Shown here: piece after piece, positions 34,776-56,589 of the stretch
Position numbering within the stretch: position 1 is the first letter of the stretch
Layout: every line of letters starts with the position of its first letter
Assembly: GCA_947503245.1 (NCBI GenBank)
Contig: CANNCV010000002.1
Location: 124,001-188,000 of the forward strand
DNA length: 64,000 bases
Direction of reading: 5' to 3'
Source of the DNA: an uncultured Sphingomonadaceae bacterium
Lineage (GTDB): Bacteria > Pseudomonadota > Alphaproteobacteria > Sphingomonadales > Sphingomonadaceae
Notes under the pieces: model-generated
What the model was told of the DNA's origin: nothing
The model's database searches: none
What the model saw: only the letters and a program-made list of their open reading frames with translations
Translations under genes and position numbers: made by a program

Positions 34776-34849
34776 GCGAATGACTTTTCTATTGGCTGGT
34801 TATATTTTGAGAAAAGGATATCAAGACAGATATCCGCAAAGCAGGATGA

Positions 34850-35179: not shown

Positions 35180-35380
35180 TGCGTTTAATCCTTAGAAATT
35201 TGCAAATTCATTGCACGCATATAGTGAAGTTCAGCAAAAAGAACAGCCCGATCATAACCATATCCGCATTAGTAGGAACAAATAGCCGATAAAGGCAATT
35301 GTCTGCTCAAAACCAGTGCAATCGCGCTTGCCAAATATTCGGCCCAGCCCTATATCCCGCGACTTGGGTAATCCCAAGGT

Positions 35381-35457
35381 CGGGACGTAGCGCAGCCTGG
35401 TAGCGCATCACACTGGGGGTGTGGGGGTCGGAGGTTCGAATCCTCTCGTCCCGACCA
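35381..35457 (+). tRNA. tRNA-Pro (GGG)
   Basis: 77 bases with encoded CCA. Acceptor arms CGGGACG and CGTCCCG pair fully, discriminator A at 35454. The anticodon loop CTGGGGG gives anticodon GGG. T arm GGAGG TTCGAAT CCTCT. An inverted repeat CTTGGG TAAT CCCAAG (35363-35378) lies just upstream in the leader. Confidence 0.97.
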
Positions 35458-35582
35458 ATTTTAAAAATCCTCCCATTTGATAATCTCTTCACGCTGAACG
35501 GTGGCTCTAAGGGTCAGCCTATTGGTCATCTTGCACACCATATAAACAGCGGATTTTCGAATATCATTATCGCTAAAGCAAA

Positions 35583-35615
35583 TCGGCGCGACAGAGATAT
35601 TCTCCGCCGCGCCGA
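35583..35615 (-). terminator. Probable terminator after the TonB-dependent receptor
   Basis: TCGGCGCG (35583-35590) pairs perfectly with CGCGCCGA (35608-35615), 17-base loop, followed on the minus strand by a short T-rich stretch. About 30 bases past the stop. The rest of 35458-35644 shows nothing else. Confidence 0.5.
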
Positions 35616-35644
35616 CTCTTATCTATTATCTAATGCCGACCAGC

Positions 35645-38600
35645 TTAGAAGCTCAGGGTCGCACCAAATTGGATACGGCGATCAGGAAGGCCTTGGAAAC
35701 AGAGCAAGGCATCTTCGTTTACACAGCTTTGTGTAATCCGTGATTTGGTGAGGTTCACACCTTCAATACCGACATTCAGGAAATCTGTAACGTCATAATT
35801 GATGCCAGCGTTCAACTGACCGCGAGACTCTGTTACCGGCGGGAAGCCGAGAGTAGAGTTCAAGGTCGCACCAGCAGCAGTATCCAAAGTACGGAAGGAA
35901 TCGCGCCATGTATAACGTGCCCGTGCTGAAATGCCGTATTTCTCGTAATAGAGAGTCACGTTGTAAGCATGTGGCGAGAAATCCAGCAAGCCCTGAACCC
36001 GGGTTACCGGAACAGCAATGTTCGGGTTAATCGCTTGGAAGATATCTTCACCGCGACCAGAGTTAGAGTTCGTAGCCTCACCACCGCTAAATTCCTGATA
36101 GGTATAGTTAGCGATGATACCAAAGCCTGATGCAAAGCCCAATGTGTCTTCGAATTGTGAGAGATCATATTGGAACGCAACTTCAATACCGGTCTGTCTG
36201 GTTGTTCCCGGATCATTGATGGTTGTGAGCAGAGGCGCACAAATACCATTACCAATAACCGGCGACAGAACGTTACGGCCTGCAATCGGGTTAAAGATAC
36301 CGCCGCCTTCACATGGTGGCGTGATATCACGGAAACCATTCTCATCTTCAAATGGATCATCCAATTGCGCCACAAACAAATTGGTTCTTTCTTTGTGGAA
36401 TACACCAACGCTCAGCACGGATGACGGAGCAAAATACCACGAGATAGACGCATCATAAGATTCGACTGTTTCTGGCGATAGATTTGGATTGCCTTGGTTA
36501 ACCGCGCTATTGCCCCCTGTTGGGAAAGCTAGTGAGAGCGAGAGATCGTCAAAGTCTGGACGGTTAATGTCCTCACCATAGCTAGCACGGATGACAATAT
36601 CATCGGTTGCATCAAAGATCAGGTTAACACGTGGCAGCAACTCTTGATAATTACCGGTCGCAGACACAGGCGTTACGATACCGCCACCAACATTGTTACC
36701 AATGGAGTTGATGCTGGTATTGATCCAGCGCAGACCGAAATTACCGCGCAAACGACCAAGTTCGAAATTCGCCTGACCATAGATAGAATGCGTTTCTTCC
36801 TCGACGCGGAAAGTCGCACCCAAGTTATTAGGCGTATTTGGATCCAGATCGCTCAACAAGCGGCCGCCATTGGCAATTGCAGCCTGACCGCCTGGCGTTC
36901 CATCCAAGACATCTTGCAACTGCGCAAACACTTCTGCTTGGTTAGAAAAAGACTGGTTAGGGTCAATCAAAAGGAAGTTACGGAACGCTAGCTCACGTCC
37001 GTCAAACTCACCGAAATTGCTAGGTCCTTGAACAAGCAGGTCAGCAAAAAGTGTACCACGCGGACTGTTTACGATAGCGCCAGTGCCGAAATTGGTTTCA
37101 ATTTGCGTGAAGTCTACTGACGTATCATTGTAGCGATAACCGACATCGAATGATGTGAAAAACGGTGTCAGATCTTCAACATCCAATGTCGTATCGATAC
37201 GGAATGCATTCTCAGAACTTTCCGTGCGGTTATTGCCTGCCTGCACCTGATCCAGCACGACATTTGCAGGATCAAGAAGATCAGCCACGGTCGGTGCAAA
37301 TGGTGAGTTAAAATCAACACCAAATGTCAATGCGCCGCCGGTCAGGTCGAAAATGAACGGTGTGCTGTTATCGTTGCTGGTGCCGTCGAGCGGCGTCAGC
37401 GGATTAGGGTTGATGAAGTTAAGCTGAGTGCTCAAATTCGGGTTAGTCGTGTCAGAATCAGTGCGCGATCCTTCGAGACGGACTGAGAAACGACCAAACT
37501 CCAACTCAGTACCGAGGCGATAAACTTGGCTATTGGTTACACGAGCGCCCACATCGCCAGAGAAACGCAAATTGGGATCATCATCATCAACAGCAATATT
37601 TGGCTGGATAGTACCCGTCAATGCAGCCTGAATACTGCCCAGTTCAACACCGTCAAGCGAACCGAAATCCACAGTCTCAAATGTGTCCGGAACGTTGTTC
37701 AGGTCAAGAGCACTAACGCCAGAACCTTGAATACGTGAGCTATCCTGTGTGCGGGTTTGATCGTTGATGATCGTATCAAAATAGAAAGACACATTATCAG
37801 ACGGTGCCCATTCCAATGTACCTGAGAAGTTAATGGTCTCAAATTCAAAATTCTCGGTTTCTTGGTTCAAGAACTGAATGCCCAAGAACGGAAAGTCCGG
37901 CCCGGGTGCACCAGAAGCAGTTACCGCAGCGCCTGCAGGAATAAGGTTATCCCGGTCGACACGTGGACGGAAAGATGTTGCTTCTAGCTCAGTATAGCTG
38001 CCGCTCAGTACGACACCAATCTCACCAACGCCTGTTGACCACACATTACCATAACTTCCAGAAATTCTGGGGCGGATGGTGTCGGACAGTTCACTATATT
38101 CACCCTGTACACGAACAGACAAAATCTGGTCTGTCAGATCAAGCGGCCGGATTGTCCGCAAATTGATGGTGCCGCCAACAGCGCCTTCAATGGTTTTGGC
38201 TTCCGGCGCTTTGATGACTTCAACCGAAGCAATAATCGCTGGGTTAATATCTTCAAAGCTAATGCCGCCACGGCCTGTGCCAGCGCTCAGCGTTGTAACA
38301 TCGTTGATCGCAGTCCGGTTGTCATTTGTACCGCGAATTTGCACGCCAGTACCAACACCTGCGGTTCTGGTAATCTGAACGCCAGTAATGTTTTCCAGCA
38401 CCTCAGCAAGGTTTTGGTCAGGAAGCTTACCAATATCTTCCGCCTGAATCACCTCGATAAGGCTGTCAGCATTACGTTTTTCGTTCAGGGCGCTTTGTAG
38501 TGAACTGCGAATACCTGTGACGATAATGGCATCGCCTTCTTCGCCTGCTTCTTCATCAGCAGCTGCCTCTTGCGCATATGCCGGGTTTGACAAAGCCATT

Positions 38601-38680
38601 AAGGCTGACCCCCCTAGCAATGCCATGGCAAATTTTTTCCGCGCAAGACCTTTGGCACGGATCAATCCGGTTTGTAACAT
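35645..38680 (-). CDS. TonB-dependent outer-membrane receptor
   Basis: 1011 residues. Signal peptide ends near NPAYAQ (about 36). DAIIVTGIRSSLQSALNEKR, near 50-70, is the TonB-box/plug start typical of the large carbohydrate-type receptors of sphingomonads and xanthomonads. The plug continues with LPDQNLAEVLENITGVQI and IRGTNDNRTAIND; the remainder is a 22-strand barrel ending in the terminal Phe of IQFGATLSF. Takes up a substrate across the outer membrane using ExbBD-TonB energy. No inner-membrane transporter or glycosidase lies next to it, so the substrate is unassigned. Confidence 0.93.
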   Translation of the reverse strand: MLQTGLIRAKGLARKKFAMALLGGSALMALSNPAYAQEAAADEEAGEEGDAIIVTGIRSSLQSALNEKRNADSLIEVIQAEDIGKLPDQNLAEVLENITGVQITRTAGVGTGVQIRGTNDNRTAINDVTTLSAGTGRGGISFEDINPAIIASVEVIKAPEAKTIEGAVGGTINLRTIRPLDLTDQILSVRVQGEYSELSDTIRPRISGSYGNVWSTGVGEIGVVLSGSYTELEATSFRPRVDRDNLIPAGAAVTASGAPGPDFPFLGIQFLNQETENFEFETINFSGTLEWAPSDNVSFYFDTIINDQTRTQDSSRIQGSGVSALDLNNVPDTFETVDFGSLDGVELGSIQAALTGTIQPNIAVDDDDPNLRFSGDVGARVTNSQVYRLGTELEFGRFSVRLEGSRTDSDTTNPNLSTQLNFINPNPLTPLDGTSNDNSTPFIFDLTGGALTFGVDFNSPFAPTVADLLDPANVVLDQVQAGNNRTESSENAFRIDTTLDVEDLTPFFTSFDVGYRYNDTSVDFTQIETNFGTGAIVNSPRGTLFADLLVQGPSNFGEFDGRELAFRNFLLIDPNQSFSNQAEVFAQLQDVLDGTPGGQAAIANGGRLLSDLDPNTPNNLGATFRVEEETHSIYGQANFELGRLRGNFGLRWINTSINSIGNNVGGGIVTPVSATGNYQELLPRVNLIFDATDDIVIRASYGEDINRPDFDDLSLSLAFPTGGNSAVNQGNPNLSPETVESYDASISWYFAPSSVLSVGVFHKERTNLFVAQLDDPFEDENGFRDITPPCEGGGIFNPIAGRNVLSPVIGNGICAPLLTTINDPGTTRQTGIEVAFQYDLSQFEDTLGFASGFGIIANYTYQEFSGGEATNSNSGRGEDIFQAINPNIAVPVTRVQGLLDFSPHAYNVTLYYEKYGISARARYTWRDSFRTLDTAAGATLNSTLGFPPVTESRGQLNAGINYDVTDFLNVGIEGVNLTKSRITQSCVNEDALLCFQGLPDRRIQFGATLSF

Positions 38681-38884
38681 AATACCTTCCCCTATAGTTA
38701 CTTTATAATATTATGAGCGTATAGTTTATGAACACGACCAATCTGTCAAGCCATTGAATATACCTATTCTCGATTTTTTTATCCCATTGGGCTGCAAATT
38801 GGTATGAAGAATATGCTTACCGGTGGTTGTTGAGCGCTTTCAAGGAGGGAAATTTGCGTATATTACGGCTCAGATGCCGATATA

Positions 38885-38905
38885 TGCAATTGCATTAGCT
38901 GCAAT
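38885..38905. promoter_or_regulatory. Palindrome and repeated half-site upstream of cydA
   Basis: TGCAATTGCA (38885-38894) is a perfect palindrome and TGCAAT recurs at 38900-38905, about 40 bases before cydA. It does not fit the FNR consensus. Possibly an operator for the oxidase operon. The remaining upstream region to 38681 shows no other feature. Confidence 0.3.
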
Positions 38906-38947
38906 CAGGGCCGACATAAATAGTTAAGCAGAGCAGGGTTTGAGACT

Positions 38948-40378
38948 ATGATCGAGAATGAATTTGCTATCTTATTGGCCCGCATACAGTTCGCTTTTAC
39001 GGTAAGCTTCCACTTTCTTTTCCCGGCCTTTTCCATAGGTTTGGCTAGTTATTTGGCCGTTTTGGAAGGGCTGTGGCTAAAGACCGGAAAAGGCGTCTAT
39101 GCTAATCTTTATCGTTATTGGTTAAAGATTTTTGCCATCGTCTTCGCCATGGGTGTCGTATCGGGCATTGTGATGTCATACCAATTTGGCACTAATTGGT
39201 CTGTTTTTTCAGACAGGGCGGGACCTGTAATCGGGCCATTAATGGCCTATGAGGTGCTTACAGCCTTTTTTCTAGAGGCAGGTTTTTTGGGAGTGATGCT
39301 TTTTGGCATCAATAAAGTCGGCAAAAAATTGCATTTTGCGGCAACGCTGGCCGTTGCAATTGGAACTTTCATATCGGCTTTCTGGATTTTGTCCGTGAAC
39401 AGTTGGATGCAAACACCTGTTGGCTATGAGATAACGGCCAATGGTCAATTTGTGCCAGGGGAGAGTTGGCTTACAATCATTTTCAACCCAAGCTTCCCCT
39501 ATCGCCTGATCCATACTTTAATGGCGGCCTATCTTACCACAGCCTTTGCCGTTGGCGCAGTTGGCGCTTGGCACTTGCTTAAGGACAAAGCGAATCCAGG
39601 CGCACGCAAAATGTTTTCGATGGCGATGTGGATGGCGGCAATTGTCGCGCCCTTGCAGATTTTTGCCGGCGATATGCACGGGTTGAATACACTGGAGCAT
39701 CAACCAGCAAAGGTCATGGCGATGGAAGGGCATTATGAGAGCCATCCTGAAGGTGCGCCGCTGATTTTGTTTGGCATACCTAACAGCAAAGAGAAGCGAG
39801 TCGATTATGCCATTGAAATTCCCAAGGCGAGCTCTCTCATATTAAAGCATGATTTGGATGCGCCGCTGGATGGGCTCGACACAATCCCGGACGAGGATGA
39901 ACCTCCTGTCGCCATCGTCTTCTGGTCTTTCCGTATCATGGTGGGTTTGGGCTTTGCCATGATGGGTATCGGTATATGGAGTCTTTTTGCACGGTGGCGC
40001 AAAAGCCTATATGATTGGCCATGGCTGCACCGGATCGCCATTATAATGGGTCCATCAGGATTTATCGCCGTACTCGCTGGCTGGGTAACGACTGAAGTGG
40101 GGCGTCAACCTTATACCATCTATGGATTGCTGCGCACTGCGGATAGTGCATCGCCATTAGACGCGCCCGCAGTCGCTGCTTCGCTTATTGCCTTTGTCAT
40201 TGTGTATTTTTTCGTTTTCGGCGCAGGCGTCTGGTATTTGTTGCAGCTTATGAAGAAACCTCCTCAGGCGCGCGAGGCAATGCTTGACGGCACACCCATT
40301 CGGTCCGCCGGTATTACCCCCGCTCCGGCTGTTGGAAAACAAAGGACTGATAGCAAGCAAGCGGAGCAAGACACATGA
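38948..40378 (+). CDS. cydA: Cytochrome bd-type quinol oxidase subunit I
   Basis: 476 residues with about nine membrane helices. The first helix holds RIQFAFTVSFHFLFPAFSIG with the haem-ligand His near 22. The periplasmic Q loop is short (GDMHGLNTLEHQPAKVMAMEG region with conserved Lys/Glu), as in CioA, the cyanide-insensitive type. GWVTTEVGRQPYTIYG is the usual motif except that Tyr replaces the common Trp after GRQP. Reduces O2 with quinol without pumping protons. Followed by cydB with ATGA overlap. Confidence 0.95.
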   Translation: MIENEFAILLARIQFAFTVSFHFLFPAFSIGLASYLAVLEGLWLKTGKGVYANLYRYWLKIFAIVFAMGVVSGIVMSYQFGTNWSVFSDRAGPVIGPLMAYEVLTAFFLEAGFLGVMLFGINKVGKKLHFAATLAVAIGTFISAFWILSVNSWMQTPVGYEITANGQFVPGESWLTIIFNPSFPYRLIHTLMAAYLTTAFAVGAVGAWHLLKDKANPGARKMFSMAMWMAAIVAPLQIFAGDMHGLNTLEHQPAKVMAMEGHYESHPEGAPLILFGIPNSKEKRVDYAIEIPKASSLILKHDLDAPLDGLDTIPDEDEPPVAIVFWSFRIMVGLGFAMMGIGIWSLFARWRKSLYDWPWLHRIAIIMGPSGFIAVLAGWVTTEVGRQPYTIYGLLRTADSASPLDAPAVAASLIAFVIVYFFVFGAGVWYLLQLMKKPPQAREAMLDGTPIRSAGITPAPAVGKQRTDSKQAEQDT

Positions 40379-41379
40379 CGGGCTTGGACCTTACCGTAAT
40401 TTGGGCCGCAATCATCGCCTTTGCTATTATAGCCTATGTCGTCATGGACGGCTTCGACCTAGGTATTGGTATGCTCTTCCCTCGCATCCCTGTCGGGAAA
40501 CAGCGTGATACGGCTATGAACAGCATCGCGCCTATATGGGACGGGAACGAGACTTGGCTGGTGCTTGGCGGCGGGGGCTTAATGGCCGCATTCCCATTGG
40601 CCTATGCCGTTATACTGCCGGCTTTATACGCTCCTCTAACCGCTATGTTGCTGGGCCTCATTCTGCGCGGCGTAGCATTTGAATATCGATGGCGTGACGA
40701 ACGGCATCGTGAAACATGGGATCGCGCCTTTTTCGCTGGGTCCTTTGTCGCTACATTTGCGCAAGGCGTTACATTGGGTGCTTTGCTGCAAGGCATAAGC
40801 ATAAGTGGCCGCTCTTATTCCGGCGGTTGGTGGGAATGGCTCTCACCCTTTTCTATGTTGACAGGTATCGGTCTATGCACCGGTTATGTGCTGCTCGGCA
40901 GCTGTTGGCTTATCATGAAAACAGAAGGGCCCTTGCAAGACAAAGCATATGGTTATGCGCGGTCAGCAACGATCAGCCTGTTGCTGGCAATTGCCGCTGT
41001 AAGTGCCGCCACGCCGTTTCTTGAAGAAAAATATCATGAACGCTGGCTTGAATATCCAAATATCATTGCCACTGCGCCAGTGCCCGTAGCAACATTGATC
41101 ATAGCTTTCTTGCTTTTCCGCAGCCTGATAAAACGCCTGGAAATAGCGCCTTTTCTGTATGCGCTTGGGCTGTTCGGTCTTTGCATTATCGGTTTGGGCA
41201 TATCAATCTGGCCAGATATCATCCCCGGGCGCATAACAATATGGGAGGCGGCATCCCCGCCGAGCAGCCAGCTTTTCATGCTGGTCGGGGCGGCTATCTT
41301 AGTACCTGTTATTTTGGCTTATACCGCTTATGCCTATTGGGTTTTTCGCGGCAAGGTTGAAAATGAAGGCTATCACTGA
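40375..41379 (+). CDS. cydB: Cytochrome bd-type quinol oxidase subunit II
   Basis: 334 residues, eight or nine membrane helices, starting MTGLDLTVIWAAIIAFAI with VVMDGFDLGIGMLFP and WDGNETWLVLGGGGLMAAFP, the CydB/CioB signature. Its ATG overlaps the cydA stop, so stoichiometric coupling is likely. Two bases separate it from the small third gene. Confidence 0.96.
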   Translation: MTGLDLTVIWAAIIAFAIIAYVVMDGFDLGIGMLFPRIPVGKQRDTAMNSIAPIWDGNETWLVLGGGGLMAAFPLAYAVILPALYAPLTAMLLGLILRGVAFEYRWRDERHRETWDRAFFAGSFVATFAQGVTLGALLQGISISGRSYSGGWWEWLSPFSMLTGIGLCTGYVLLGSCWLIMKTEGPLQDKAYGYARSATISLLLAIAAVSAATPFLEEKYHERWLEYPNIIATAPVPVATLIIAFLLFRSLIKRLEIAPFLYALGLFGLCIIGLGISIWPDIIPGRITIWEAASPPSSQLFMLVGAAILVPVILAYTAYAYWVFRGKVENEGYH

Positions 41380-41381
41380 TT

Positions 41382-41501
41382 ATGGACCAACCTCCCCAGC
41401 CTTTAATCAAGCAATTGATCTGGTTTGTCGGTCTATGGGCCATCAGCGTCCTGACACTCGGCATTATCGGCTTGGTTATAAAGTCTGTCTTATCGCCATA
41501 A
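41382..41501 (+). CDS. DUF2474-like small subunit of the bd oxidase
   Basis: 39 codons, too short for most ORF callers. The product starts MDQPPQPLIKQL and has one membrane helix (about 13-34, with WFVGLWAISVL) and a short basic end. Single-helix proteins of this type (DUF2474, functionally like CydX) follow CioAB genes in many proteobacteria and stabilise the oxidase. It starts two bases after the cydB stop. Confidence 0.8.
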   Translation: MDQPPQPLIKQLIWFVGLWAISVLTLGIIGLVIKSVLSP

Positions 41502-41574
41502 TTTAGGGCAAAGCGCCATTTGGCGAAGCTATATCGCCAAAGCCACGCAACACTGCATCGCGATACGCCATATC

Positions 41575-41614
41575 GTAGGAAAGCATCTGTCCTACAAATA
41601 ACCAATTAGGTTAT
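41575..41614. promoter_or_regulatory. Hairpin and palindrome upstream of the endolysin gene
   Basis: GTAGGA (41575-41580) and TCCTAC (41590-41595) form an inverted repeat; three bases on lies a perfect 6-5-6 palindrome, ATAACC AATTA GGTTAT (41598-41614), about 40 bases before the endolysin ATG. A good candidate operator controlling lysis genes. Confidence 0.45.
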
Positions 41615-41651
41615 ATACTCCTTTTTATATTCCAATAAGGAGTGTTGGCAA

Positions 41652-42197
41652 ATGGAGAAAGTTACTCAGCTCATCAACGATGTCATTGCGCGTGAAGGGG
41701 GATATAGCAACCACCCCGATGATCGCGGAGGCCCAACACGATGGGGCATTACCCAAAGCGTAGCCCGTAAGCAGGGATATTCAGGTGATATGAAACATCT
41801 GCCGCGCGAAAGCGCTATGGACATATATCGTCAGCTTTACTGGCTCGACCCCAAGCTGGATCAAGTTGCAGAGCGCGCACCTCTATTAGCCGCAGAGTTG
41901 TTCGATACCGCAGTGAATATGGGCACGGCCAGAGCGATCCGCTTTCTACAAAGGTCACTCAACGCACTACAACGCAGTGACAATGACCATTTGCTGACAC
42001 TTGATGGCGTTATCGGTTCGCAAACTTTGCGCATATTGGATGGTTTTCTGAAAAAGCGCGGTCGTCAGGGAGAGCGCGTGCTCACTCGCGCCGTCGATTC
42101 CCTACAAGGTGCCAAATATATAAGTCTTGCAGAGAGCAGACCAGCCAATCGATCTTTCTTATTTGGTTGGCTCGCGCACCGCATAGGTGTGGAATAA
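41652..42197 (+). CDS. GH108-type endolysin (muramidase)
   Basis: 181 residues. The GH108 core opens with IAREGGYSNHPDDRGGPTRWGIT, where Glu in REGGY is the catalytic acid; YRQLYWLDPKLDQV and AELFDTAVNMGTARAIRFLQRSLN follow, and a peptidoglycan-binding-like LDGVIGSQTLRIL region is near 120-135. AAGGAG precedes the ATG by nine bases. No signal peptide, so export requires the holin next door. Together they resemble rcc00555/rcc00556, the release genes of the Rhodobacter gene transfer agent. Confidence 0.92.
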   Translation: MEKVTQLINDVIAREGGYSNHPDDRGGPTRWGITQSVARKQGYSGDMKHLPRESAMDIYRQLYWLDPKLDQVAERAPLLAAELFDTAVNMGTARAIRFLQRSLNALQRSDNDHLLTLDGVIGSQTLRILDGFLKKRGRQGERVLTRAVDSLQGAKYISLAESRPANRSFLFGWLAHRIGVE

Positions 42198-42270
42198 ATC
42201 CACTTTCTCTGGTCGATACATCCCTTCGAGATAAACACCCTTCCCCGCAATTTACCAAAGGACAATCTTC

Positions 42271-42681
42271 ATGGCGATATTGGAAAACCTGATCAGCCCG
42301 ATCACATCTATAATAGACAAAATTATTCCTGACCCTGATGCAAGAGCCGAAGCAAAATTGGAGTTAATTAAATTACAGGGCAGCCAAGAATTGCAAGCAG
42401 TTGAAACGCGAATCGCTACCATATTGGCTGAAGCAAAGTCTGCAGATCCATGGACCAGTCGGGCGCGACCAAGCTTTCTTTACGTAATGTACGCTATGAT
42501 TTTATGGGCCATCCCGATGGGCGTGATAGCATCGATCCGTCCAGAAACCGCTTTTGCTATCGCCAATGGCATGAATGCCTATCTTTCCGGCCTTCCAGAG
42601 CCATTATATGCCTTATTCGGCACGGGATATTTGGGTTATACTGTTGCGCGACAATGGGGTAAAAATCGTGGAATCGAATAA
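42271..42681 (+). CDS. Holin, GTA_holin_3TM type
   Basis: 136 residues. N-terminal amphipathic part IISPITSIIDKIIPDPDARAEAKLEL-like (residues 8-35), a polar linker, then membrane segments at about 68-90 and 105-125 with SRARPSFLYVMYAMILW. This matches the Holin of 3TMs for gene-transfer release. Lets the endolysin reach the wall. 73 bases after the endolysin gene. No phage structural genes are near. Confidence 0.88.
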   Translation: MAILENLISPITSIIDKIIPDPDARAEAKLELIKLQGSQELQAVETRIATILAEAKSADPWTSRARPSFLYVMYAMILWAIPMGVIASIRPETAFAIANGMNAYLSGLPEPLYALFGTGYLGYTVARQWGKNRGIE

Positions 42682-42755
42682 AATTTATCTCTGTTTACGC
42701 AAAAAAAACTATCCTCCATGCGAAAAAATCTTGCCAGACGCATATTCATGCCAGT

Positions 42756-42777
42756 AAACAGGGCACTCTGTTTTTAA
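42756..42777 (+). terminator. Weak terminator after the holin gene
   Basis: AAACAG GGCACT CTGTTT forms a six-pair stem followed by TT. Weak, but located between the holin gene and the Cys-repeat gene. Confidence 0.4.
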
Positions 42778-42800
42778 GAATCCTACGAAGGGGAATGAAT

Positions 42801-43130
42801 ATGAAAAACTCTAACCTGGGCAAAATGCTCGCCATCGCTGGCGGTCTTGCACTTGCAACTGCTTGTACTCCTGAAGAAGCTGGCGACGCCGCTGCATGTG
42901 CAGCTTGTGCCGCTGAATGTGCTGCTGGTTGTGCAGCATGTGCCGCTGGTTGTGCAGCTTGCGCAGCTGGTTGTGCAGCATGTGCAGCAGCTTGTGGTGC
43001 AGCATGTGCAGCAGCTTGTGCAGCATGCGGCGCGGCTTGCGCAGCATGTGGCGCAGCATGTGCAGCTAGCGACGCCGCTTGTGCAGCAGCATGTGCAGCT
43101 TGTGCAGCAGTAGACGCTGTAACCGAGTAA
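42801..43130 (+). CDS. Exported lipoprotein made of Cys/Ala heptad repeats
   Basis: 109 residues. A lipoprotein signal (MKNSNLGKMLAIAGG, lipobox LATAC) leads to a mature chain that is nearly all Ala, Cys and a few Gly. I count twenty Cys. From residue about 33 cysteines lie 3 and 4 apart in alternation (C-AA-C-AAG-C-AA-C), the a/d spacing of a heptad, so a helix would present a continuous cysteine face. ATG 42801 has GGGG seven bases before it; ATG 42795 is too close. The DNA is a degenerate tandem repeat of about 21 bases. No family recognised. A second gene of the same design is at 55481-55777. Confidence 0.9.
   Translation: MKNSNLGKMLAIAGGLALATACTPEEAGDAAACAACAAECAAGCAACAAGCAACAAGCAACAAACGAACAAACAACGAACAACGAACAASDAACAAACAACAAVDAVTE
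42890..43105 (+). repeat. Coding tandem repeat (Cys/Ala)
   Basis: Degenerate repeats built from TGTGCAGCATGTGCAGCA-like units, about 21 to 24 bases, entirely inside the lipoprotein gene. They keep frame, so length changes would add or remove cysteines. Confidence 0.85.
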
Positions 43131-43222
43131 TTTTGCTGAAAAATTGAATTTGGCGGTTTACTGGCGGCCATATTGGCTTACATTCAATTCTAACTCAGAT
43201 TAGAATGGTTTAGTAAGATAAT

Positions 43223-43852
43223 ATGACCGAATCAGTAGACCGCCTTTTTCGTTTAACCGAACAAATTGTTGAAGAGGGTGTATCGCTAGTACCGCGTGTG
43301 GTACCTATGGATGCGCCTTTTGTTCAATATCAGCACTATCCCAAAGGCGATTGTATCGCTCCGGGGAATAAGTCACGCTGGTTTTACCATGCGCACAAAC
43401 CCGAAGAACGGGAAGAAGGCGAGCATGGTCATTTTCACATGTTTTTGCCGGGCGATGTTTTTAAAGGCGTAGAGCCGCTTAACGCTCCTCCTCACAAAAA
43501 AAACAAAAAGGGCAATTTCCCAGCCAAAGTCGTGCATTTTGCTGCACTTGGCTTTGATACTGCGGGTATGCCGCTTTATTGGTTCACAACAAATTATTGG
43601 GTCACGGCGGAATATATGATGCCAGCTGACGCCATTGCGCAACGCCTGAAGCTTTTTAACATGAAGGGTGCGCCTGGTGACCCGTTAGTCAATGATTGGC
43701 TGACAGCAGCAGTTGAGGTTTTCCGCGACCCCATCATCAGCCTGTTGGAAGAGCGCGATAAGATCATCGGCGCAGCTGTAGAAGAAGAAGGCGACAAAGC
43801 CTATCTCAACAAGAAGATAGAAATCCCTTCCAAAGCGGCTTTTGATTTATAA
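43223..43852 (+). CDS. DUF6969-like histidine-rich protein
   Basis: 209 residues. The striking feature is WFYHAHKPEEREEGEHGHFHMF, a His-rich core (written in parts: YHAH, then EHGHFHMF) near residues 53-74 that could bind metal; later QWFTTNYW-like and NDWLTAAVEVFRD helices. It resembles the DUF6969 family, whose role is unknown. Follows the Cys-repeat lipoprotein by about 90 bases on the same strand. No signal peptide is seen. Confidence 0.75.
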   Translation: MTESVDRLFRLTEQIVEEGVSLVPRVVPMDAPFVQYQHYPKGDCIAPGNKSRWFYHAHKPEEREEGEHGHFHMFLPGDVFKGVEPLNAPPHKKNKKGNFPAKVVHFAALGFDTAGMPLYWFTTNYWVTAEYMMPADAIAQRLKLFNMKGAPGDPLVNDWLTAAVEVFRDPIISLLEERDKIIGAAVEEEGDKAYLNKKIEIPSKAAFDL

Positions 43853-43881
43853 TCTATAGCAGCAATTCGCGCCAAAATATT

Positions 43882-43958
43882 TGGTGACCCCGGCGTGATT
43901 CGAACACGCGGCCTATTGATTAGGAATCAATTGCTCTATCCTGCTGAGCTACGGGGCC
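43882..43958 (-). tRNA. tRNA-Arg (CCT)
   Basis: 77 bases with encoded CCA. Acceptor GGCCCCG pairs with CGGGGTC (one G-U). Anticodon stem ATTGA/TCAAT holds the loop TTCCTAA, anticodon CCT, reading AGG. T arm contains GTTCGAAT. Confidence 0.97.
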
Positions 43959-44031
43959 CCCATCTATGGTCTAGCCATGCTATGAATACGCTTCAAGACC
44001 TAGCTTAGCTATACCCCATGCCTGTACGTGA

Positions 44032-44565
44032 TCAGTTTTCTTTATCAGGTCGCCTAATCGGCAGTGGCAAAGGCGCGATATTGATCCCCTCTTCCAGCAA
44101 TTCTTTCGCATCGTCCAAACTGGCCTCACCATGCACAGGTGCGACCTCCGCCTCACCATAATGCATAGCACGCGCGGTATCTGTGAAGTCTTCTCCCACC
44201 CAGCGCGATGACTCAAGCGCTTTTTCTTGTGCCTCAGCTAGCTTTGACAACATGGCCTTCATCTCAGTCATTGATGGCGCTGATGCACCCGTTGGAGTCG
44301 AGAGCTGTACTGCATCATTAGGCTTTGCGTTTTCTACTGACCCGACAGCATCTTCTTTTATCGGCGCAGGTATCAAATCTATAGCCGATTTCTGATTAGA
44401 TTTCGCGCCAATAGACGGCGCCATAACTGCTTTGGAAATATCATCTGCACCGCATATCGGACAGCTTATCAGGCCGCGCGCTGATTGATCTGTAAAATCA
44501 TCGCTCGATCCAAACCATCCTTCAAAAATATGGTGGTTTGGGCACTGCAGATCAAAAACAATCAC
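44032..44565 (-). CDS. DUF1178 family protein
   Basis: 177 residues starting MIVFDLQCPNHHIFEGWFGS, with a CPICG pair near residue 36 and Cys8, a probable zinc site. A low-complexity middle (Ala/Pro/Ser) is followed by FTDTARAMHYGEAE. Overlaps the upstream nitrilase stop by ATGA. DUF1178 after a nitrilase-type gene and grxC is a widely conserved alphaproteobacterial order. Function unknown. Confidence 0.92.
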   Translation of the reverse strand: MIVFDLQCPNHHIFEGWFGSSDDFTDQSARGLISCPICGADDISKAVMAPSIGAKSNQKSAIDLIPAPIKEDAVGSVENAKPNDAVQLSTPTGASAPSMTEMKAMLSKLAEAQEKALESSRWVGEDFTDTARAMHYGEAEVAPVHGEASLDDAKELLEEGINIAPLPLPIRRPDKEN

Positions 44566-45398
44566 TGGGTGAATATCCTGGGTGTCTTGGCAAAATCGCG
44601 TTGATTGGCGAGCGAGGGCAATTTTTTGCGTGTTTCACTCACTTTTTCAAGGTCAATTGACGCAAAACCAAGCCCGCTCTGATTATTCATATCCAGCAAA
44701 ACATCTCCCCAAGGGTCAATAACCAAAGAATGCCCATAGGTCTTGCGGCCATCTTCATGCTCACCATTTTGTGCAGCCGCTATAATAAAGCACTGCCCTT
44801 CAATAGCACGGGCACGCAACAGGCTGTGCCAATGGGCTTTACCGGTTGGCACAGTAAACGCAGCTGGAACCGTTATCACATGAGCGCCATTGGCCACCAA
44901 CGCAGCGTAGAGAGCGGGAAAGCGCATGTCATAACAGACTGTCATGCCCAGCTGCCCAATAGGGCTGTGCGTTAAAACGGCCTCTTGCCCTGCCCCATAA
45001 GCTGATGATTCGCGCCAATCATCGCCATTGCCCAATGTCACATCGAACAGATGAATCTTATCATAGCGCGCTGAAATACGGCCCTGCCTATCGAACAGTA
45101 TCGACCGGTTACGCCATTTTCCATCATCATGTGCCACAGCATGTGAGCCGATATGCAGTGCTATTTGCGCTTTGCTGCAAGCCTTGGCCATGTGCTGCAA
45201 AAAACCACTCTCGCCCTCACTAACGATATGCTGCGCCGCACGTTTACGGTCTCGGTCAAGCATGCCCGCCATTTCAGGGGTGAACAAAATTTCTGCCCCT
45301 TGATCGGCAGCCTGCTCAATAGCGGTTTCGATTATACATGCATTTTCTGACGGCTGTGTGCCGCTTTTCATCTGCAACAAGGCAATTTTGTGCGCCAT
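44562..45398 (-). CDS. Carbon-nitrogen hydrolase (Nit1/NIT2-like)
   Basis: 278 residues with the nitrilase triad: Glu in LFTPEMAG, Lys in YDKIHLFDV and Cys in TVCYDMRFPALY. Family members include deaminated-glutathione and omega-amidases, consistent with the grxC neighbour, but the exact substrate is not certain. In a block comF-grxC-nit-DUF1178, 33 bases after grxC. Confidence 0.92.
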   Translation of the reverse strand: MAHKIALLQMKSGTQPSENACIIETAIEQAADQGAEILFTPEMAGMLDRDRKRAAQHIVSEGESGFLQHMAKACSKAQIALHIGSHAVAHDDGKWRNRSILFDRQGRISARYDKIHLFDVTLGNGDDWRESSAYGAGQEAVLTHSPIGQLGMTVCYDMRFPALYAALVANGAHVITVPAAFTVPTGKAHWHSLLRARAIEGQCFIIAAAQNGEHEDGRKTYGHSLVIDPWGDVLLDMNNQSGLGFASIDLEKVSETRKKLPSLANQRDFAKTPRIFTQ

Positions 45399-45431
45399 CA
45401 GCCAACCATCAAAAATCTTAAAGCTGGCAGC

Positions 45432-45689
45432 TTAACCAGCAAGCAAAGCGTCCAACTTACCCGCAGCTTCCAATGCAGCAAGATCATCAGAACCGCCAAT
45501 ATGGTTATCATTGATAAAAATTTGCGGCACAGTGGTGCGGCCATTGGCACGTTCAATCATTTCGGCACGCTTTGCGCCGCCCATGCTGATCTCATATTCT
45601 TCAAATGACGCCCCTTTTTGTTTCAAAAGGTCTTTCGCCCGATAACAAAAAGGGCAAGTAAATTTGGTATAGATTTCAATTTTGGTCAT
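45432..45689 (-). CDS. grxC: Glutaredoxin 3
   Basis: 85 residues with the CPFC redox pair in KFTCPFCYRAKDLL, TTVPQIFINDNHIGGSDDL (cis-Pro and glutathione site). Reduces protein disulfides with glutathione. ATG 45689 follows GAGGAATT; the open frame begins earlier without support. Confidence 0.96.
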   Translation of the reverse strand: MTKIEIYTKFTCPFCYRAKDLLKQKGASFEEYEISMGGAKRAEMIERANGRTTVPQIFINDNHIGGSDDLAALEAAGKLDALLAG

Positions 45690-45762
45690 AATTCCTCTTT
45701 CCATAAGCATATGGTCATTCATGCCGCCCTGTTCAACAAGACTATACGCGACCGTAAAAGCG

Positions 45763-46542
45763 TTAATGCATCGCTTCTAATCCGGCCTCTCCATCTCGCA
45801 ACACCCTTGCCCAACACATGATTTCAACCCTGCTTGCTCCGGCTTTTTTAAGCACTTTAACGCAAGCATGGCTGGTCGCCCCGCTGGTATAGACATCATC
45901 GACAAGCATTATCTTGCGCCCACTTAGCTGACCAGCTTTTTTAGGATTAACAGCAAATACATTTTTCACGGCCTCTTTTCGCTGCCTTAATGTCATATTT
46001 TTGAGCGGCGGCGTGGCTTTGGTCCTCAGCAATGCATCGGCGCTGATTGCTGTTCCGTGCATATGCGCCAATTGCGATGCGATGAGTTGCGACTGATTAA
46101 ACCCTCGCCGCCATAACCGCCATCGGTGCAAAGGCACTGGCACCAACAGCCAATCTTCCTCCAAGTCGGGCATTTGACGCAGCAGCTGCCCTGCAATAAG
46201 CTTGGCAAGGCCAATGCGCCCTGCATGTTTCAGGCGTAATGCAATACGCCGTGACAGATCATCATATATAGCAACGGCACGAATGCCATCATGCGGTGGT
46301 GGCTCAGCCAGACATGGGCCGCATATCAACTGATCCTGCTCTGAATGAGAGTGATCTGCGCCCAATGGACGGCCGCAATTGCCACATTGCGGCGCAGATA
46401 TAAGGCGCAGCCTTGGCCAGCAATCGCCGCAAAAGCCGCCTTGTTCCAGCACCATTTCACCGCATAAAGGGCATCGCGGTGGCAGGATCAGATCGACAAA
46501 GCCGCCCAAAGCGTGACGATAATGATCGCTCACCTTGCCCAT
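45763..46542 (-). CDS. ComF-family phosphoribosyltransferase-like protein
   Basis: 259 residues. N-terminal double zinc-finger-like region (CPLCGEM, CGDC, CGNCG, CGPC; residues about 21-65) then a phosphoribosyltransferase domain with MLVDDVYTSGAT near 218. Linked in other bacteria to DNA uptake or to DNA metabolism. First gene of the block before grxC; divergent from the methyltransferase. Confidence 0.93.
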   Translation of the reverse strand: MGKVSDHYRHALGGFVDLILPPRCPLCGEMVLEQGGFCGDCWPRLRLISAPQCGNCGRPLGADHSHSEQDQLICGPCLAEPPPHDGIRAVAIYDDLSRRIALRLKHAGRIGLAKLIAGQLLRQMPDLEEDWLLVPVPLHRWRLWRRGFNQSQLIASQLAHMHGTAISADALLRTKATPPLKNMTLRQRKEAVKNVFAVNPKKAGQLSGRKIMLVDDVYTSGATSHACVKVLKKAGASRVEIMCWARVLRDGEAGLEAMH

Positions 46543-46612
46543 ATCGCGCTCCTTTTACGCTAGCAGCAATTTGCCACTTGCCCGAATGATGACAAATCGC
46601 CACATCGCAAAT

Positions 46613-47497
46613 ATGCAAGACCCGTCAGAACCGAACAAAATTTTTGACCCACAACGTCAACGCCAGAACCGCCAACGTCGCATGACAATGTTGCAACGGC
46701 AAGCGGATAGTGACTTTTTGGGCGACCTGATGGCCGATGATATAATTGCCAGGCTGGATGTCGTTACCAGATCATTTTCTAAAGCTTTGATCATCGGCAA
46801 TTGCTCAGACACTCTCTTGGATTGGCTCAAAGAACGCAGCATTGAGACAGCAATTATTGATATGGTGCCTGCTCCTGCGCACAGGCCCAATATGCCGCCG
46901 CATCTCATCTGCAAGGAATGGGATAAAATTCCTGATCTGCCATTCCGACCGGATTTGATCATTATGATTGGCGTGCTGGATGCTGCCAATGATGTACCTG
47001 GCCTATTGGTGCAGTTGCGCAGAACTTTACGCCCTGATGGATTGTTGCTTGCTGAGTTTTTTGGTGTTGGCAGTTTGCCATTGTTAAAGCGTGCAATGTT
47101 GGTCGCGGATGGCGATATGCCGCGGCCACATATACACCCGCAAATCGATGTTCGCTCAGGCGGCGATCTTTTAAGCCGTGCCGGCTTTGCTATGCCCGTG
47201 GCAGATATTGATATGTTGAGCGTTCGCTACAGGTCAGTCCGGCAATTACTGCGCGACATTCGCAGCTTTGGCGGCGGTTATGCCCTTACCAACAAAATTG
47301 TGCGTTACAGCAAAGGCCAATGGGCGCTGCTTAATGATTATATCGCATCACAAGTAGATAGTGATGAAAGGGCTACCGAGAGTTTTGCGCTTGTATCGCT
47401 TAGCGGATGGGCACCCTCGCCAGACCAACCAAAGCCGGCAAAACGTGGAAGCGCAACAATGTCACTCGCCAGCCAGCTTGGTAAAAAGCCTGACTGA
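46613..47497 (+). CDS. SAM-dependent methyltransferase, NDUFAF5/BioC-like
   Basis: 294 residues. FDPQRQRQNRQRR near the start matches the opening of the NDUFAF5-type proteins; KALIIGNC stands at the SAM-site position but its glycine-rich loop is shortened. DLIIMIGVLDAANDVPGLL and LRPDGLLLAEFFG follow the Rossmann order. NDUFAF5 acts in complex I assembly. ATG 46613 is chosen for the conserved start; ATG 46589 is an alternative. Faces a SPOR gene. Confidence 0.85.
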   Translation: MQDPSEPNKIFDPQRQRQNRQRRMTMLQRQADSDFLGDLMADDIIARLDVVTRSFSKALIIGNCSDTLLDWLKERSIETAIIDMVPAPAHRPNMPPHLICKEWDKIPDLPFRPDLIIMIGVLDAANDVPGLLVQLRRTLRPDGLLLAEFFGVGSLPLLKRAMLVADGDMPRPHIHPQIDVRSGGDLLSRAGFAMPVADIDMLSVRYRSVRQLLRDIRSFGGGYALTNKIVRYSKGQWALLNDYIASQVDSDERATESFALVSLSGWAPSPDQPKPAKRGSATMSLASQLGKKPD

Positions 47498-47514
47498 CGA
47501 TTTGACAGGTTATC

Positions 47515-48789
47515 TTAGCGACGCGCGGCCAAGCGGGCTGAACCTGAGCCACCATTGCCGGATTTGCGCACAATACAGCTGCCGCCGCGTGCTTTAATAC
47601 CGTCACAAAGAGCTTTTGCAGATTGCTCATTACCAAAACCCGTCGCTGCAAGGCGATATAGTGTCCGGCCATTTGATTTTACCGTAGAACTGGCATTTCC
47701 AAAGGGTGCAAGCTCGCGATATTGCGTGGTCAGTTGCGACCATGCTTTTTGCGCGCCTTGCTGCGAGGAGAATGCGCCAAGCTGCAAGATATATTGGCCT
47801 TTAGCGACGCGTTGCCGCGCTGCTGGAGCTGGCTTCGCTGTAGGTGCAGGTTTCGCGATGCGTGATGGTGCAACACCCGCAGTCTCAACAATTGGCGCCT
47901 TTTTGGCTTTAGCCGGTTTGGCAATGGGTTTTGCAGCCGGTTTTGGCGCCGGAATGGCAATCGGTGCAGCAGATGCCAACGTTATCGGCTTAGGCGCGGC
48001 TTTAGGAGCAGGCGCCGGAGCAGCTTTGGCGGGTGCTTTCGCAGCAATAGCGACGGCCTGCGCATTTTCGCTTTGCGGACGTAGCGCCAACTGTACTGGC
48101 TGCCCATTATCAACCGCTGCAGGGCTTACGCCCAGAAGAGAAGCAACACGTGCCTGATAAGCATTTGGCCGTGCAAGCTGTGCCCATTGCAGGATACGCG
48201 CATTAACATCATCAGGCTTTACATCTTGACCAGCCATCAACTTGGCTTCGCGCCAGCGGCCATCCAAGGCATAAGCAAAAGCAAGATTTTGACGAACCTT
48301 TGGTGAATTGACACCTGTACGGATAAGGCCGGATAGCACGTCAACACCGCGGCGCGTTTCACCAGCAAGCGCCAGGGCGAGACCATAATCGCTAGGCGGC
48401 AGAACCGATTGTTTGGCATTGAGCAGTTTAAGCGCGTCTTGCTGCTTGCCTTGCGCAATTTGCGTCAGCGACATGCTGATAATGGTGCGCGCACTGTTAT
48501 CACCCAATGCAATGGCATCTTCAAATGTCTTTTCAGCAGATCTGAAACGTCCATCCTTAAGATATGCCTGCGCTAATATACGGCGTGCCTCTGCGTCACG
48601 CGGCGCAATCAGCACAGCCTCTTCGGCAGTCGCAATCGCTTTGGCAGTCTTGCCTTTGGACAATGACTTCTCAGCTTTTTGTGTCAGATTTGCAGGCCCG
48701 CCGCTTTGACCGGGGGTACTACAACTGGCCAATGTCACGCCAAATATCAGCGTAGATACGGCCATTTTCAGCATTGCCTTGTTCGTCAT
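47515..48789 (-). CDS. TPR lipoprotein with SPOR domain
   Basis: 424 residues. Lipoprotein signal ending LASC, TPR repeats (about 35-170, SKGKTAKAIATAEEAVLIAPRD), a Pro/Ala/Lys linker (about 255-325) and a C-terminal SPOR domain (about 330-415, YILQLGAFSSQQGAQKAW). SPOR binds denuded septal glycan. ATG 48789 follows AAGGA with eight-base spacing. Next to the RHH/ParA genes on the same strand. Confidence 0.9.
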   Translation of the reverse strand: MTNKAMLKMAVSTLIFGVTLASCSTPGQSGGPANLTQKAEKSLSKGKTAKAIATAEEAVLIAPRDAEARRILAQAYLKDGRFRSAEKTFEDAIALGDNSARTIISMSLTQIAQGKQQDALKLLNAKQSVLPPSDYGLALALAGETRRGVDVLSGLIRTGVNSPKVRQNLAFAYALDGRWREAKLMAGQDVKPDDVNARILQWAQLARPNAYQARVASLLGVSPAAVDNGQPVQLALRPQSENAQAVAIAAKAPAKAAPAPAPKAAPKPITLASAAPIAIPAPKPAAKPIAKPAKAKKAPIVETAGVAPSRIAKPAPTAKPAPAARQRVAKGQYILQLGAFSSQQGAQKAWSQLTTQYRELAPFGNASSTVKSNGRTLYRLAATGFGNEQSAKALCDGIKARGGSCIVRKSGNGGSGSARLAARR

Positions 48790-48842
48790 TGTGTCCATCC
48801 TTGTTCTGGTCACTTAAATAAGTTTGTGTTCTTCAATTCTGT

Positions 48843-49883: not shown

Positions 49884-49900
49884 TTCTGTATCGCCCCCGA

Positions 49901-50626: not shown

Positions 50627-50766
50627 AATGATCCCCTTGGTTAGAAAACTCAAAATGGGTTTCGCAGAACAGCCCTAATTTTGAGTTAACGGGGAAAAGA
50701 AATTGTAAAAAACCTCAAAAAACTGTTCGAAATGGCCAAATGCTAGGGTTCCTATTGCCTGTCCAT

Positions 50767-54759: not shown

Positions 54760-55296
54760 TTATGATGCATAATGCTCGCTGGGGTCATGCTTAGGATAAT
54801 TCTCGTCAGCTGAAGTGATAAAGTTCTCTTTATCTTTCTGCCAATTGCCTTGAACCTGTTCATTGAAGTTCAGGTACAATTTGCCGTCTACGATTTCATA
54901 AACATTTGGATTGCCCGGTGCCAGCGCATCATTGGCGCCGATCGCCCATGCGCAATACCCGCCATATTGTGGGGCATATTTTGCAGGATCAGCAGAGAAT
55001 TTTTCGGCATTTTCGGCGCTGGCAAAGCGATATTCATAGCCTTGATACAGAACAGTATTTTCTTCAGCGCCTTCTACAGGAACGCCATCACCAACAAAAT
55101 AGCTTACGGCATCATAACCGGAAAGAGCCAAAGTCTCACCAGCATTTTCGGTGTAGATCGGGCCAGTAGCTTCCCCGCCAGCATTCAGTCCTGCAGTTTC
55201 GGCTGCGACTTCTGTGTCTTCTGCAGTTGTGTTACCGCCACCACAAGCGACCAATGCCAAGCTTGCAGCAGCAACGAAAAATAGGGATTTCTTCAT
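54760..55296 (-). CDS. YHS-domain lipoprotein
   Basis: 178 residues. Lipoprotein signal ending LVAC (Cys18), then a low-complexity Thr/Glu/Ala linker and a YHS-type domain (about 50-150): ALSGYDAVSYFVGDGVPVEG, YRFASAENAEKFSADP and GGYCAWAIGAND. The family's Tyr-His-Ser core is only loosely kept and one Cys remains. Own promoter in 55297-55423. A paralogue lies at 55859. Confidence 0.88.
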   Translation of the reverse strand: MKKSLFFVAAASLALVACGGGNTTAEDTEVAAETAGLNAGGEATGPIYTENAGETLALSGYDAVSYFVGDGVPVEGAEENTVLYQGYEYRFASAENAEKFSADPAKYAPQYGGYCAWAIGANDALAPGNPNVYEIVDGKLYLNFNEQVQGNWQKDKENFITSADENYPKHDPSEHYAS

Positions 55297-55480: not shown

Positions 55481-55777
55481 TTAAGCTGAAGGCGCGCACG
55501 CACCACAAGCTGCACAGGCTCCGCAATCAGCTGCACATGCACCGCAAGCCGCTGCACATGCACCGCAAGCCGCTGCACATGCACCGCATGCTGCTGCGCA
55601 TGCACCGCATGCTGCTGCACAAGCGCCACAAGCCGCTGCGCATGCACCACAAGCTGCGCATTGAGCAGCACATTGTGCGTGATGGGTTGGTGCTTCTGCG
55701 GCTTGTGCGGGGGCAGCAGCCATTGTCATTCCGCCAGCAACAGCCAACATCGCAGAAAGGTTTTTAGCAATCGTCAT
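55481..55777 (-). CDS. Secreted Cys/Ala heptad-repeat protein
   Basis: 98 residues. A Sec signal ends near APAQA (about 26). The mature part starts AEAPTHHAQCAAQCAA and then consists of repeated CGACAAA heptads (five exact, one ending D, then shortened copies), eighteen Cys in all. Every Cys lies at a or d of a heptad (spacing 3,4). ATG 55777 has GGAG ten bases before it. Gene follows the second YHS gene (gap 81 bases with a structured leader) and ends at a strong terminator. No known family recognised; the other copy of this design is at 42801-43130. Confidence 0.9.
   Translation of the reverse strand: MTIAKNLSAMLAVAGGMTMAAAPAQAAEAPTHHAQCAAQCAACGACAAACGACAAACGACAAACGACAAACGACAAACGACAADCGACAACGACAPSA
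55500..55660 (-). repeat. Coding 21-base tandem repeat
   Basis: Successive 21-base units, for example the same unit at 55541-55561 and 55562-55582, encode CGACAAA. Near identity of some units suggests recent expansion. Confidence 0.9.
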
Positions 55778-55858: not shown

Positions 55859-56344
55859 TTAGCTGCCGAATTTTGCAGTGTCTGGGAATGAAGGCCACTT
55901 TACGTCACCTTTTTTGATGAACCCGGGAACATCTTTGTTCCAACGTGTTTGAACGCCTTTGTTGAAGTTCAGGTACAATTTTCCATCGACAACTTTGTAA
56001 ACTGTTGGATCTCCCGGTGCCAATGCGCCATTTGCGCCCAGTGCCCATGCGCAATGTCCGCCATATTGAGGAGCATATTTTGCAGGGCTTTTCTTAAACT
56101 TCGCAGCATTTGCAGCTGTAGCGAAGAAATAATCAGCGCCTTTATAGGTCACTTTAAACTGCTTCTTGCCTTTGACAGGAACGCCGTCACCAACAAAATA
56201 AGATACGGCATCATAACCTTTAAGCGCCGTCGTGCCTTCGAGACCGGTATATGTTGGGCCAGCCAATGCCGGAGCAGAAACAGCAATTGTGCCGACCGAT
56301 GTCACGGCCAATGCCAACGCCAAAGTTGTCATAATTTTTTTCAT
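55859..56344 (-). CDS. YHS-domain periplasmic protein
   Basis: 161 residues. Signal peptide ending APALA (about 28), then the same YHS-like fold as the neighbour: ALKGYDAVSYFVGDGVPVKG, YFFATAANAAKFKKSPAKYA, GGHCAWALGANG. ATG 56344 follows AAGGAAG; the open frame from 56452 lacks support. First gene of the operon with the Cys-repeat gene. The two YHS proteins look like a local duplication with one lipid anchored and one free. Confidence 0.88.
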   Translation of the reverse strand: MKKIMTTLALALAVTSVGTIAVSAPALAGPTYTGLEGTTALKGYDAVSYFVGDGVPVKGKKQFKVTYKGADYFFATAANAAKFKKSPAKYAPQYGGHCAWALGANGALAPGDPTVYKVVDGKLYLNFNKGVQTRWNKDVPGFIKKGDVKWPSFPDTAKFGS

Positions 56345-56589
56345 CAAAAACTTCCTTTCATCATAACTCTGAGAAGCTGCATCAATATGGTGCAGACCCT
56401 TACAGTGTCGTCCATATCCTTCTGTTCGCGCCAAACAGCGAAAAGGTTTCACCAGTGGAAAGATTTATATGACCATCAGCCGGTTGATAGACTATTAGCG
56501 TTTTAATCATGCGGTTAAATTGTGTTGATGCTGACAAAATTTGCGCTAATGCAGAGACCATAATCAAAAATTGCATTTGGAGTGTGTTC

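Follow-up and report, generated by a model that had tools for sequence, protein, structure and literature searches.

Genes at the locus

The window, by which we mean the whole analysed stretch of 64,000 nucleotides from an uncultured Sphingomonadaceae bacterium, carries two genes for small exported proteins rich in alanine and cysteine, one adjoined by a gene of the DUF6969 family and the other flanked by two genes for YHS-domain proteins. The tmRNA of the window marks it as alphaproteobacterial, and those of its sequence neighbours that bear names belong to the Sphingomonadaceae. The features used below are the following.

42801..43130, + strand: Ala/Cys-array lipoprotein (array 1), 109 aa with 20 Cys; from the ORF and its relatives
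43223..43852, + strand: DUF6969 (PF22308) partner protein, 209 aa; Pfam E 6.5e-56; conserved His/Glu/Asp set
54760..55296, - strand: exported YHS-domain protein (YHS2), downstream of array 2; PF04945, NF041384
55333..55358, - strand: sigma-F-like site GTAACG-N16-CGAA, 1 mismatch; 62 nt before YHS2
55481..55777, - strand: second Ala/Cys array protein (array 2), 98 aa with 18 Cys and a Sec signal
55859..56344, - strand: exported YHS-domain protein (YHS1), upstream of array 2; PF04945, NF041384; longest ORF to 56452
56425..56450, - strand: sigma-F-like site GAAACC-N16-CGAA, 1 mismatch; starts 106 nt before the YHS1 ATG at 56344

The start of array 1 was placed at ATG 42801 rather than at ATG 42795 because AAGGGG lies 7 nt 5' of the former. 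The translation consists mainly of 53 Ala, 20 Cys and 10 Gly in 109 residues, which agrees with the 20 cysteines counted in the first-pass annotation, and the export signal and lipobox claimed there were also found, the signal MKNSNLGKMLAIAGGLALATA being followed by the lipidation cysteine C22 of an A-T-A-C lipobox. The cysteines had further been described as alternating at spacings of 3 and 4; the gaps in order are 11,3,4,4,3,4,3,4,3,4,4,4,3,4,3,4,7,4,3, so that 17 of 19 are indeed 3 or 4 while strict alternation does not hold. Modelled by AlphaFold2 from the single sequence and as a single chain only, the protein gave two helices, 30-65 and 67-108, with a mean pLDDT of 73.8, and a helical structure is thus possible for this member.

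At the DNA level array 1 is a tandem array of a 21-nt repeat, whose copies differ at 9/65, 12/65 and 30/65 of codon positions 1, 2 and 3, respectively; the corresponding values for array 2 are 12/61, 11/61 and 27/61. The differences thus fall mostly on the third position, which argues that the protein, and not merely a DNA repeat, has been kept. The array 1 lipoprotein matched nothing in Pfam, NCBIfam or PHROGs, with no Pfam family at E <= 1, and the protein search found it solely in its own genus (3 of 59 genomes, its own included), which we ascribe to the fast divergence of such arrays. Its orthologues in the two congeneric genomes each adjoin DUF6969, and an upstream stretch, GCAAAAAAA...ATGCGAAAA, is common to the array 1 loci of the three congeners; no sigma-70 promoter or terminator above chance was found at the array 1 locus. 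The codon-position pattern, the congeneric orthologues and the distant relatives at the same partner (see below) together argue that array 1 is more than a chance reading frame.

Directly upstream of the pair lie a GH108 muramidase gene (41652-42197, +) and a GTA-type holin gene (42271-42681, +), which may represent a cassette for lysis or release that has been domesticated; no phage genes were seen around them in the stretch of the window that was read. Among 47 DUF6969 loci, a holin gene is present in 9 and a GH108 gene in 7.

The DUF6969 partner

The partner gene is the most informative feature of the locus, though one that only computational tools could reveal. No signal peptide is apparent in the sequence of the DUF6969 protein of the window. 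An alignment of 40 DUF6969 proteins showed that P40, H56, H58, E67, G69, H70, H72, H105, V127, R178 and D179 are invariant and that H38, Y39, D43, Y55, H68, F71, G115 and N124 are kept in 39 of 40. For a soluble protein, seven histidines kept in 39 or all of the 40 members, together with the acidic residues, suggest a putative metal site. A structural model built from three sequences reached a mean pLDDT of 71.0 and a pTM of 0.74; its comparison with the PDB gave nothing better than E 0.31 by Foldseek and nothing above Z 4.2 by VIA-align, and because the alignment is so shallow the fold can be called neither new nor old on this showing. A profile search of PDB sequences returned one match at E 2.7, judged to be chance. 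A phage origin of the family was considered and rejected, the phage records being without DUF6969; of five candidate stretches in viral contigs, one could be confirmed, and it is a fragment lying at the end of its contig. The family was not found in 14 control genomes, including that of Caulobacter vibrioides.

Pairing of exported cysteine arrays with DUF6969

The DUF6969 gene, which lies 92 nt downstream of array 1, served as the anchor for searching other genomes and was present in 30 of 249 genomes of the family, 20 of 398 of the phylum and 90 of 385 of the alphaproteobacterial class. Reading of the neighbours showed that an exported Cys array adjoins DUF6969, often directly upstream and on the same strand. 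To count such arrays, a strict filter (6 or more Cys per 45 residues, with 95% or more of the residues drawn from CAGNPKSEDTQ, and no further away than 3 kb or the locus end) and a looser one, which is poor in GC-rich loci, were used. By the strict filter an array lies near DUF6969 in 25 of 31 family loci (the window included, and most of them extending only about 1.5 kb), 9 of 17 phylum loci and 16 of 39 held-out class loci, in comparison to 1 of 31, 0 of 17 and 0 of 39 in the reversed DNA; the held-out loci were previously unexamined, one per family from the class search, and the strict filter was fixed after the result of the looser filter on them was known. The looser filter found an array in 29 of 31 family and 8 of 17 phylum loci, with nulls of 1 and 1 and with 3 of 52 distal segments positive, and in 25 of 39 held-out loci in comparison to 10 of 39 when reversed. 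Both filters cover the same 17 phylum matches, the strict one mostly on longer loci. At 23 of the 39 held-out DUF6969 loci the strict filter detected no array, and DUF6969 loci without a detected array are also found in Azospirillum (L134, L135), on pSymB (L137) and in L103 and L109.

The pairing occurs in alpha-, beta- and gammaproteobacteria, and the window pair (42801-43130 with 43223-43852) fits the class by its export signal, its Cys-dense low-complexity array and the adjacent PF22308 gene. A separate pattern scan of genome contigs gave 24 stretches, of which five (from four genomes) belong to Sphingomonadaceae and were used, and the other 19 were set aside after their ORFs had been read. 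In the open-licence literature searched, we found neither a description of the array-DUF6969 pair nor the name DUF6969.

Diversity of the arrays

The repeat unit changes from locus to locus. It is CAACAAG in the window and L021, GCCAAEG in L111-L113, CCAA in L117 and L120, NPCAANPC or NPCSAK in L114, L116, L119 and L124, KPCAPK in L123, CGAKCGAK in L100, KCAPKC on a Burkholderia glumae BGR1 plasmid (L139), APCAAGAPC on pSymA of Sinorhizobium meliloti 2011 (L138) and NPCAAK in Skermanella (L140). A regular expression found a lipobox in 19 of 43 array proteins (44 were listed, with L125 left out), and the variants in relatives are TSAC, TAAC, LQAC and LSAC. In NCBIfam the B. glumae array gave a sub-threshold match, E 0.044, to a family of rSAM-modified Cys-rich RiPPs.

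The first-pass annotation had placed all the cysteines on one helix face and compared the protein with the four-helix bundles of copper storage proteins (Csp). The helical Cys moment is indeed high for array 1 (0.86), L021 (0.86) and L115 (0.89), but this geometry is not kept across the family: of the 42 array proteins that have two or more Cys, 26 show a moment of at most 0.42, among them L046 (0.38) from a congener, and 17 of 43 array proteins have at least 10 Pro after residue 25 (fused domains counted). Judged from these sequences, the heptad Cys stripe of array 1 is a local variant and the gene pair is what recurs.

Some arrays are joined to further domains. In L102 and L105 a SoxA/TsdA-like cytochrome c domain comes after the array, and L099 and L104 contain a similar domain. 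Seven further array proteins were scanned: six match cytochrome P460, all at E <= 1.8e-4 and three above the curated cut-off, and one is an unfused array. Others are poor in Cys: most Cys are lost from L058 and L074, and in L074/L127 the signal peptide is kept and all Cys but one are gone. In L058/L121, L066/L125 and L047 most array cysteines are replaced by Glu or Asp while the signal peptide and the position next to DUF6969 are kept, which perhaps reflects a shift of ligand or a loss of function.

The second array and its YHS neighbours

The design was said to recur 12 kb away, and a second Ala/Cys array does lie 12.4 kb off; it differs in having a Sec signal (AQA|A) without a lipobox. A search of the whole genome for further proteins with the 3/4 Cys spacing, proposed in the same annotation, returned arrays 1 and 2 alone, the 24-nt C-x2-C-x3-C Ala/Gly pattern giving 10 matches at two loci and a control pattern 0. 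The genes flanking array 2 score 46.9 and 35.3 bits against PF04945 (cut-off 30.3). Both thus belong to the YHS-domain (seleno)proteins of NF041384 and PF04945, a family that differs from the present one in that its member is the neighbour of the array protein and not the array protein. The available text of one report describes a YHS domain as the probable copper sensor of an M. phlei cyclase (PMC4626032). In L114 and L124 the YHS, array and DUF6969 genes are consecutive, which ties the array 1 and array 2 loci of the window together, and array 2, which lies between its two YHS proteins, is probably a metal-stress-induced branch of the same system as array 1. A protein with an AHH-type HNH nuclease domain (PF14412) is encoded nearby at 57584-58096 (-).

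Metal and redox neighbours and comparison with bufferins

A profile-free search of the 47 DUF6969 loci found as neighbours MNIO in 3 (L100, L104, L129), ECF sigma in 8, NrsF in 2, CcdA in 2, DoxX in 4 and YHS in 3, and the Skermanella record names an NrsF-family gene. L100 has the order MNIO-DUF2063-DoxX-array-DUF6969, and another 2.6 kb on lies an ECF sigma gene. In L118 ECF sigma, NrsF, thioredoxin and DsbD genes adjoin the pair, and thioredoxin-CcdA neighbours are present in L118 and L139. The L139 pair, on the B. glumae BGR1 plasmid bglu_2p (117493-132038), also lies among genes annotated as arsenosugar biosynthesis, thioredoxin, CcdA, ECF sigma factor and DoxX. DUF3179 genes occur in 5 of the 47 loci (L102, L104, L105, L100, L123), as do CMD-family genes (L100, L102, L118, L119, L123), and both are possible further members of the system.

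The MNIO proteins (PF05114, formerly DUF692) are RiPP enzymes whose precursors include the bufferins and Buf_EGKCG/oxazolins. The arrays resemble these precursors in being small exported Cys proteins, array 1 with both signal and lipobox, and in L100 the array-DUF6969 pair directly follows MNIO-DUF2063-DoxX. There are also differences. No MNIO or DUF2063 gene lies by the window pair (34001-52000), and the two MNIO genes of the genome are elsewhere; the tested arrays have no match to DUF2282 (Buf1) at E <= 1, whereas the DUF2282 protein of the own genome scores 83.6 bits; and the constant partner of the arrays is DUF6969, with repeats that are Ala/Cys, NPCAAK and the like rather than EGKCG. The own-genome bufferin operon contains DUF2282, MNIO and NrsF, with DUF2063-, DoxX- and sigma-like genes, named by position, in between, and an exact sigma-F motif 103 nt before the DUF2282 gene. 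The second MNIO gene (L143, G000:C2:511500-518500) follows a 235-aa ORF with 12 Cys and has no exact sigma-F site nearby. According to the available text of PMC12452194, a lipoprotein signal is found in some bufferins (about 16% of Buf2) and a cytochrome c fusion in some, and DoxX, ECF sigma and NrsF genes lie near bufferin genes.

Sigma-F-type promoter motifs

The available text of the Caulobacter reports gives the sigma-F motif as GTAACC-N16-CGAA (PMC3511200) and describes the SigF regulon as copper-induced, the sigF mutant as copper-sensitive, and SigF as tied also to oxidative stress in stationary phase (PMC8224329). This motif occurs 22 times in the 754,745 bases of the 47 DUF6969 loci, in comparison to 1.15 in shuffles, 0 to 2 for each of eight other spacers, 2 for the reversed pattern, and a mean of 1.1 with a maximum of 7 for 60 letter-permuted patterns. 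It lies within 250 nt upstream of 9 of 44 array-like ORFs, several of these ORFs being spurious (two in L104 and one each in L117, L118, L120, L123, L126, L128 and L129); the shuffle null, with a looser pattern, has a mean of 1.3 and a maximum of 5. The motif also precedes the L140 array and the Cys-poor remnant of L127. Three of the 39 held-out loci have one exact site each; in L202 and L206 it precedes an array, and in L183 the locus has no array. Other spacers give 0 to 2.

In the window, the sites before YHS1 and YHS2 are the sole ones with at most 1 mismatch in 64 kb; shuffles average 3.4 such sites anywhere, and none of 30 shuffles of the window has sites near both YHS starts. One-mismatch sites are likewise near the YHS starts of L023, L028, L114 and L124, but not of L027. 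Upstream of array 1 no site with at most 1 mismatch was found, the best having 2 mismatches and a spacer of 17. The likeness to the Caulobacter SigF-NrsF (group ECF16) heavy-metal regulon consists in its promoter motif at many DUF6969 loci and in the own-genome NrsF gene next to the DUF2282-MNIO operon with its exact site, whereas the array 1 lipoprotein gene differs in lacking a clear site. DUF6969 was not found in the available part of the Caulobacter SigF regulon tables. For S. meliloti, the available text of PMC6180224 reports that the tested RpoE7 targets were unresponsive to Cd, chromate and H2O2.

Interpretation

The genomes themselves display the pairing, the export signals, a Cys density kept despite the change of unit, the cytochrome fusions and the sigma-F-type motifs. 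The best explanation, to which we give a probability of about 0.58, is that the arrays form, in the envelope, a bufferin-like scaffold whose thiols would bind Cu(I) or other soft metals, DUF6969 being a cytosolic partner and possibly a modifying enzyme. Array 1 looks like an undescribed counterpart of the copper-soaking bufferins, and we lean towards assigning it to a widespread and rapidly changing class of exported Cys arrays paired with DUF6969. The array would be synthesized in the cytosol under stress, would meet and may be modified by DUF6969 there, and would then be exported, array 1 becoming lipid-anchored; its reduced thiols could then chelate or buffer Cu(I) or other thiophilic metals in the envelope under metal stress, and in some relatives the thioredoxin-CcdA pair may keep the array reduced.

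The soft-metal role, already proposed in the first-pass annotation, draws its support from context, namely the sigma-F-type motifs, the MNIO, DoxX and YHS genes that adjoin the arrays of relatives, and what has been published on SigF and copper. The metal-buffer reading is favoured by the DUF6969 pairing, the codon-position selection pattern, the excess of sigma-F motifs, the SigF copper phenotype, the MNIO-DUF2063-DoxX genes of L100, the YHS rows, and the ECF-NrsF-thioredoxin-DsbD genes of L118. It is weakened by the want of a convincing sigma-F site at array 1, the many DUF6969 loci at which no array was detected, the Cys-poor arrays (L058, L074), the exact sigma-F sites in just 3 of 39 held-out loci, and the unresponsive RpoE7 targets in the available text on S. 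meliloti (PMC6180224).

The arrays might instead be an envelope redox device, that is, a thiol/disulfide reservoir, a sacrificial scavenger of oxidants and electrophiles, or a relay that passes electrons to the fused cytochromes, kept reduced by CcdA-thioredoxin. The fusions to SoxA/TsdA-type cytochrome c and cytochrome P460 domains, the thioredoxin-CcdA neighbours in L118 and L139, the CMD-family neighbours in 5 of 47 loci and the tie of SigF to stationary-phase oxidative stress, in the available text of PMC8224329, all point that way, but the adjoining MNIO, DoxX and YHS genes and the copper phenotype of SigF indicate metals, and bufferin domains are likewise fused to cytochrome c (PMC12452194, available text), and we consider this explanation unlikely. 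A copper storage protein in the strict sense, a Cys-lined four-helix bundle, appears very unlikely. Like Csp, array 1 is a small and possibly helical protein with many cysteines at a mixture of 3 and 4 spacings, its single-sequence model has two helices, and it could plausibly serve to store Cu(I) on its thiols; yet no sequence match links the two, array 1 offers beyond Ala and Cys no side chains for the usual hydrophobic core, and helix-compatible spacing is not kept among the relatives. As a common design we reject the bundle in view of the differing units, the low Cys moments and the Pro-rich arrays that occupy the same genomic slot, as well as the fusion of some arrays to cytochrome domains.

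That the arrays are neutral low-complexity repeats, growing by slippage and functionless beyond the signal peptide, would agree with the tandem 21-nt structure, the quick change of length and unit, and the existence of Cys-poor remnants; against this stand the third-position excess among copies in both window arrays, the DUF6969 pairing across three proteobacterial classes and the promoter motifs, which make it extremely improbable.

Within the metal-buffer reading, we put forward only tentatively, and with some doubt, that DUF6969 is a new family of cytosolic multi-His metalloenzymes that would modify array cysteines before export, an MNIO-free route to envelope metal-binding peptides. Through its association with exported Cys arrays and a metal-stress promoter, DUF6969 becomes a candidate that can be tested, either as part of a bufferin-like defence against metals or as a new enzyme of peptide modification, and the pairing gives a context to Ala-Cys proteins that escape ordinary annotation because of low-complexity filtering and fast divergence. 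A possible further relative of the class is a Cys-dense array ORF at 376-684 of L015, which comes from a bacterial MAG without classification (JAPPGE010000006.1); the signal region of this ORF is similar to those of class-level arrays such as L175.
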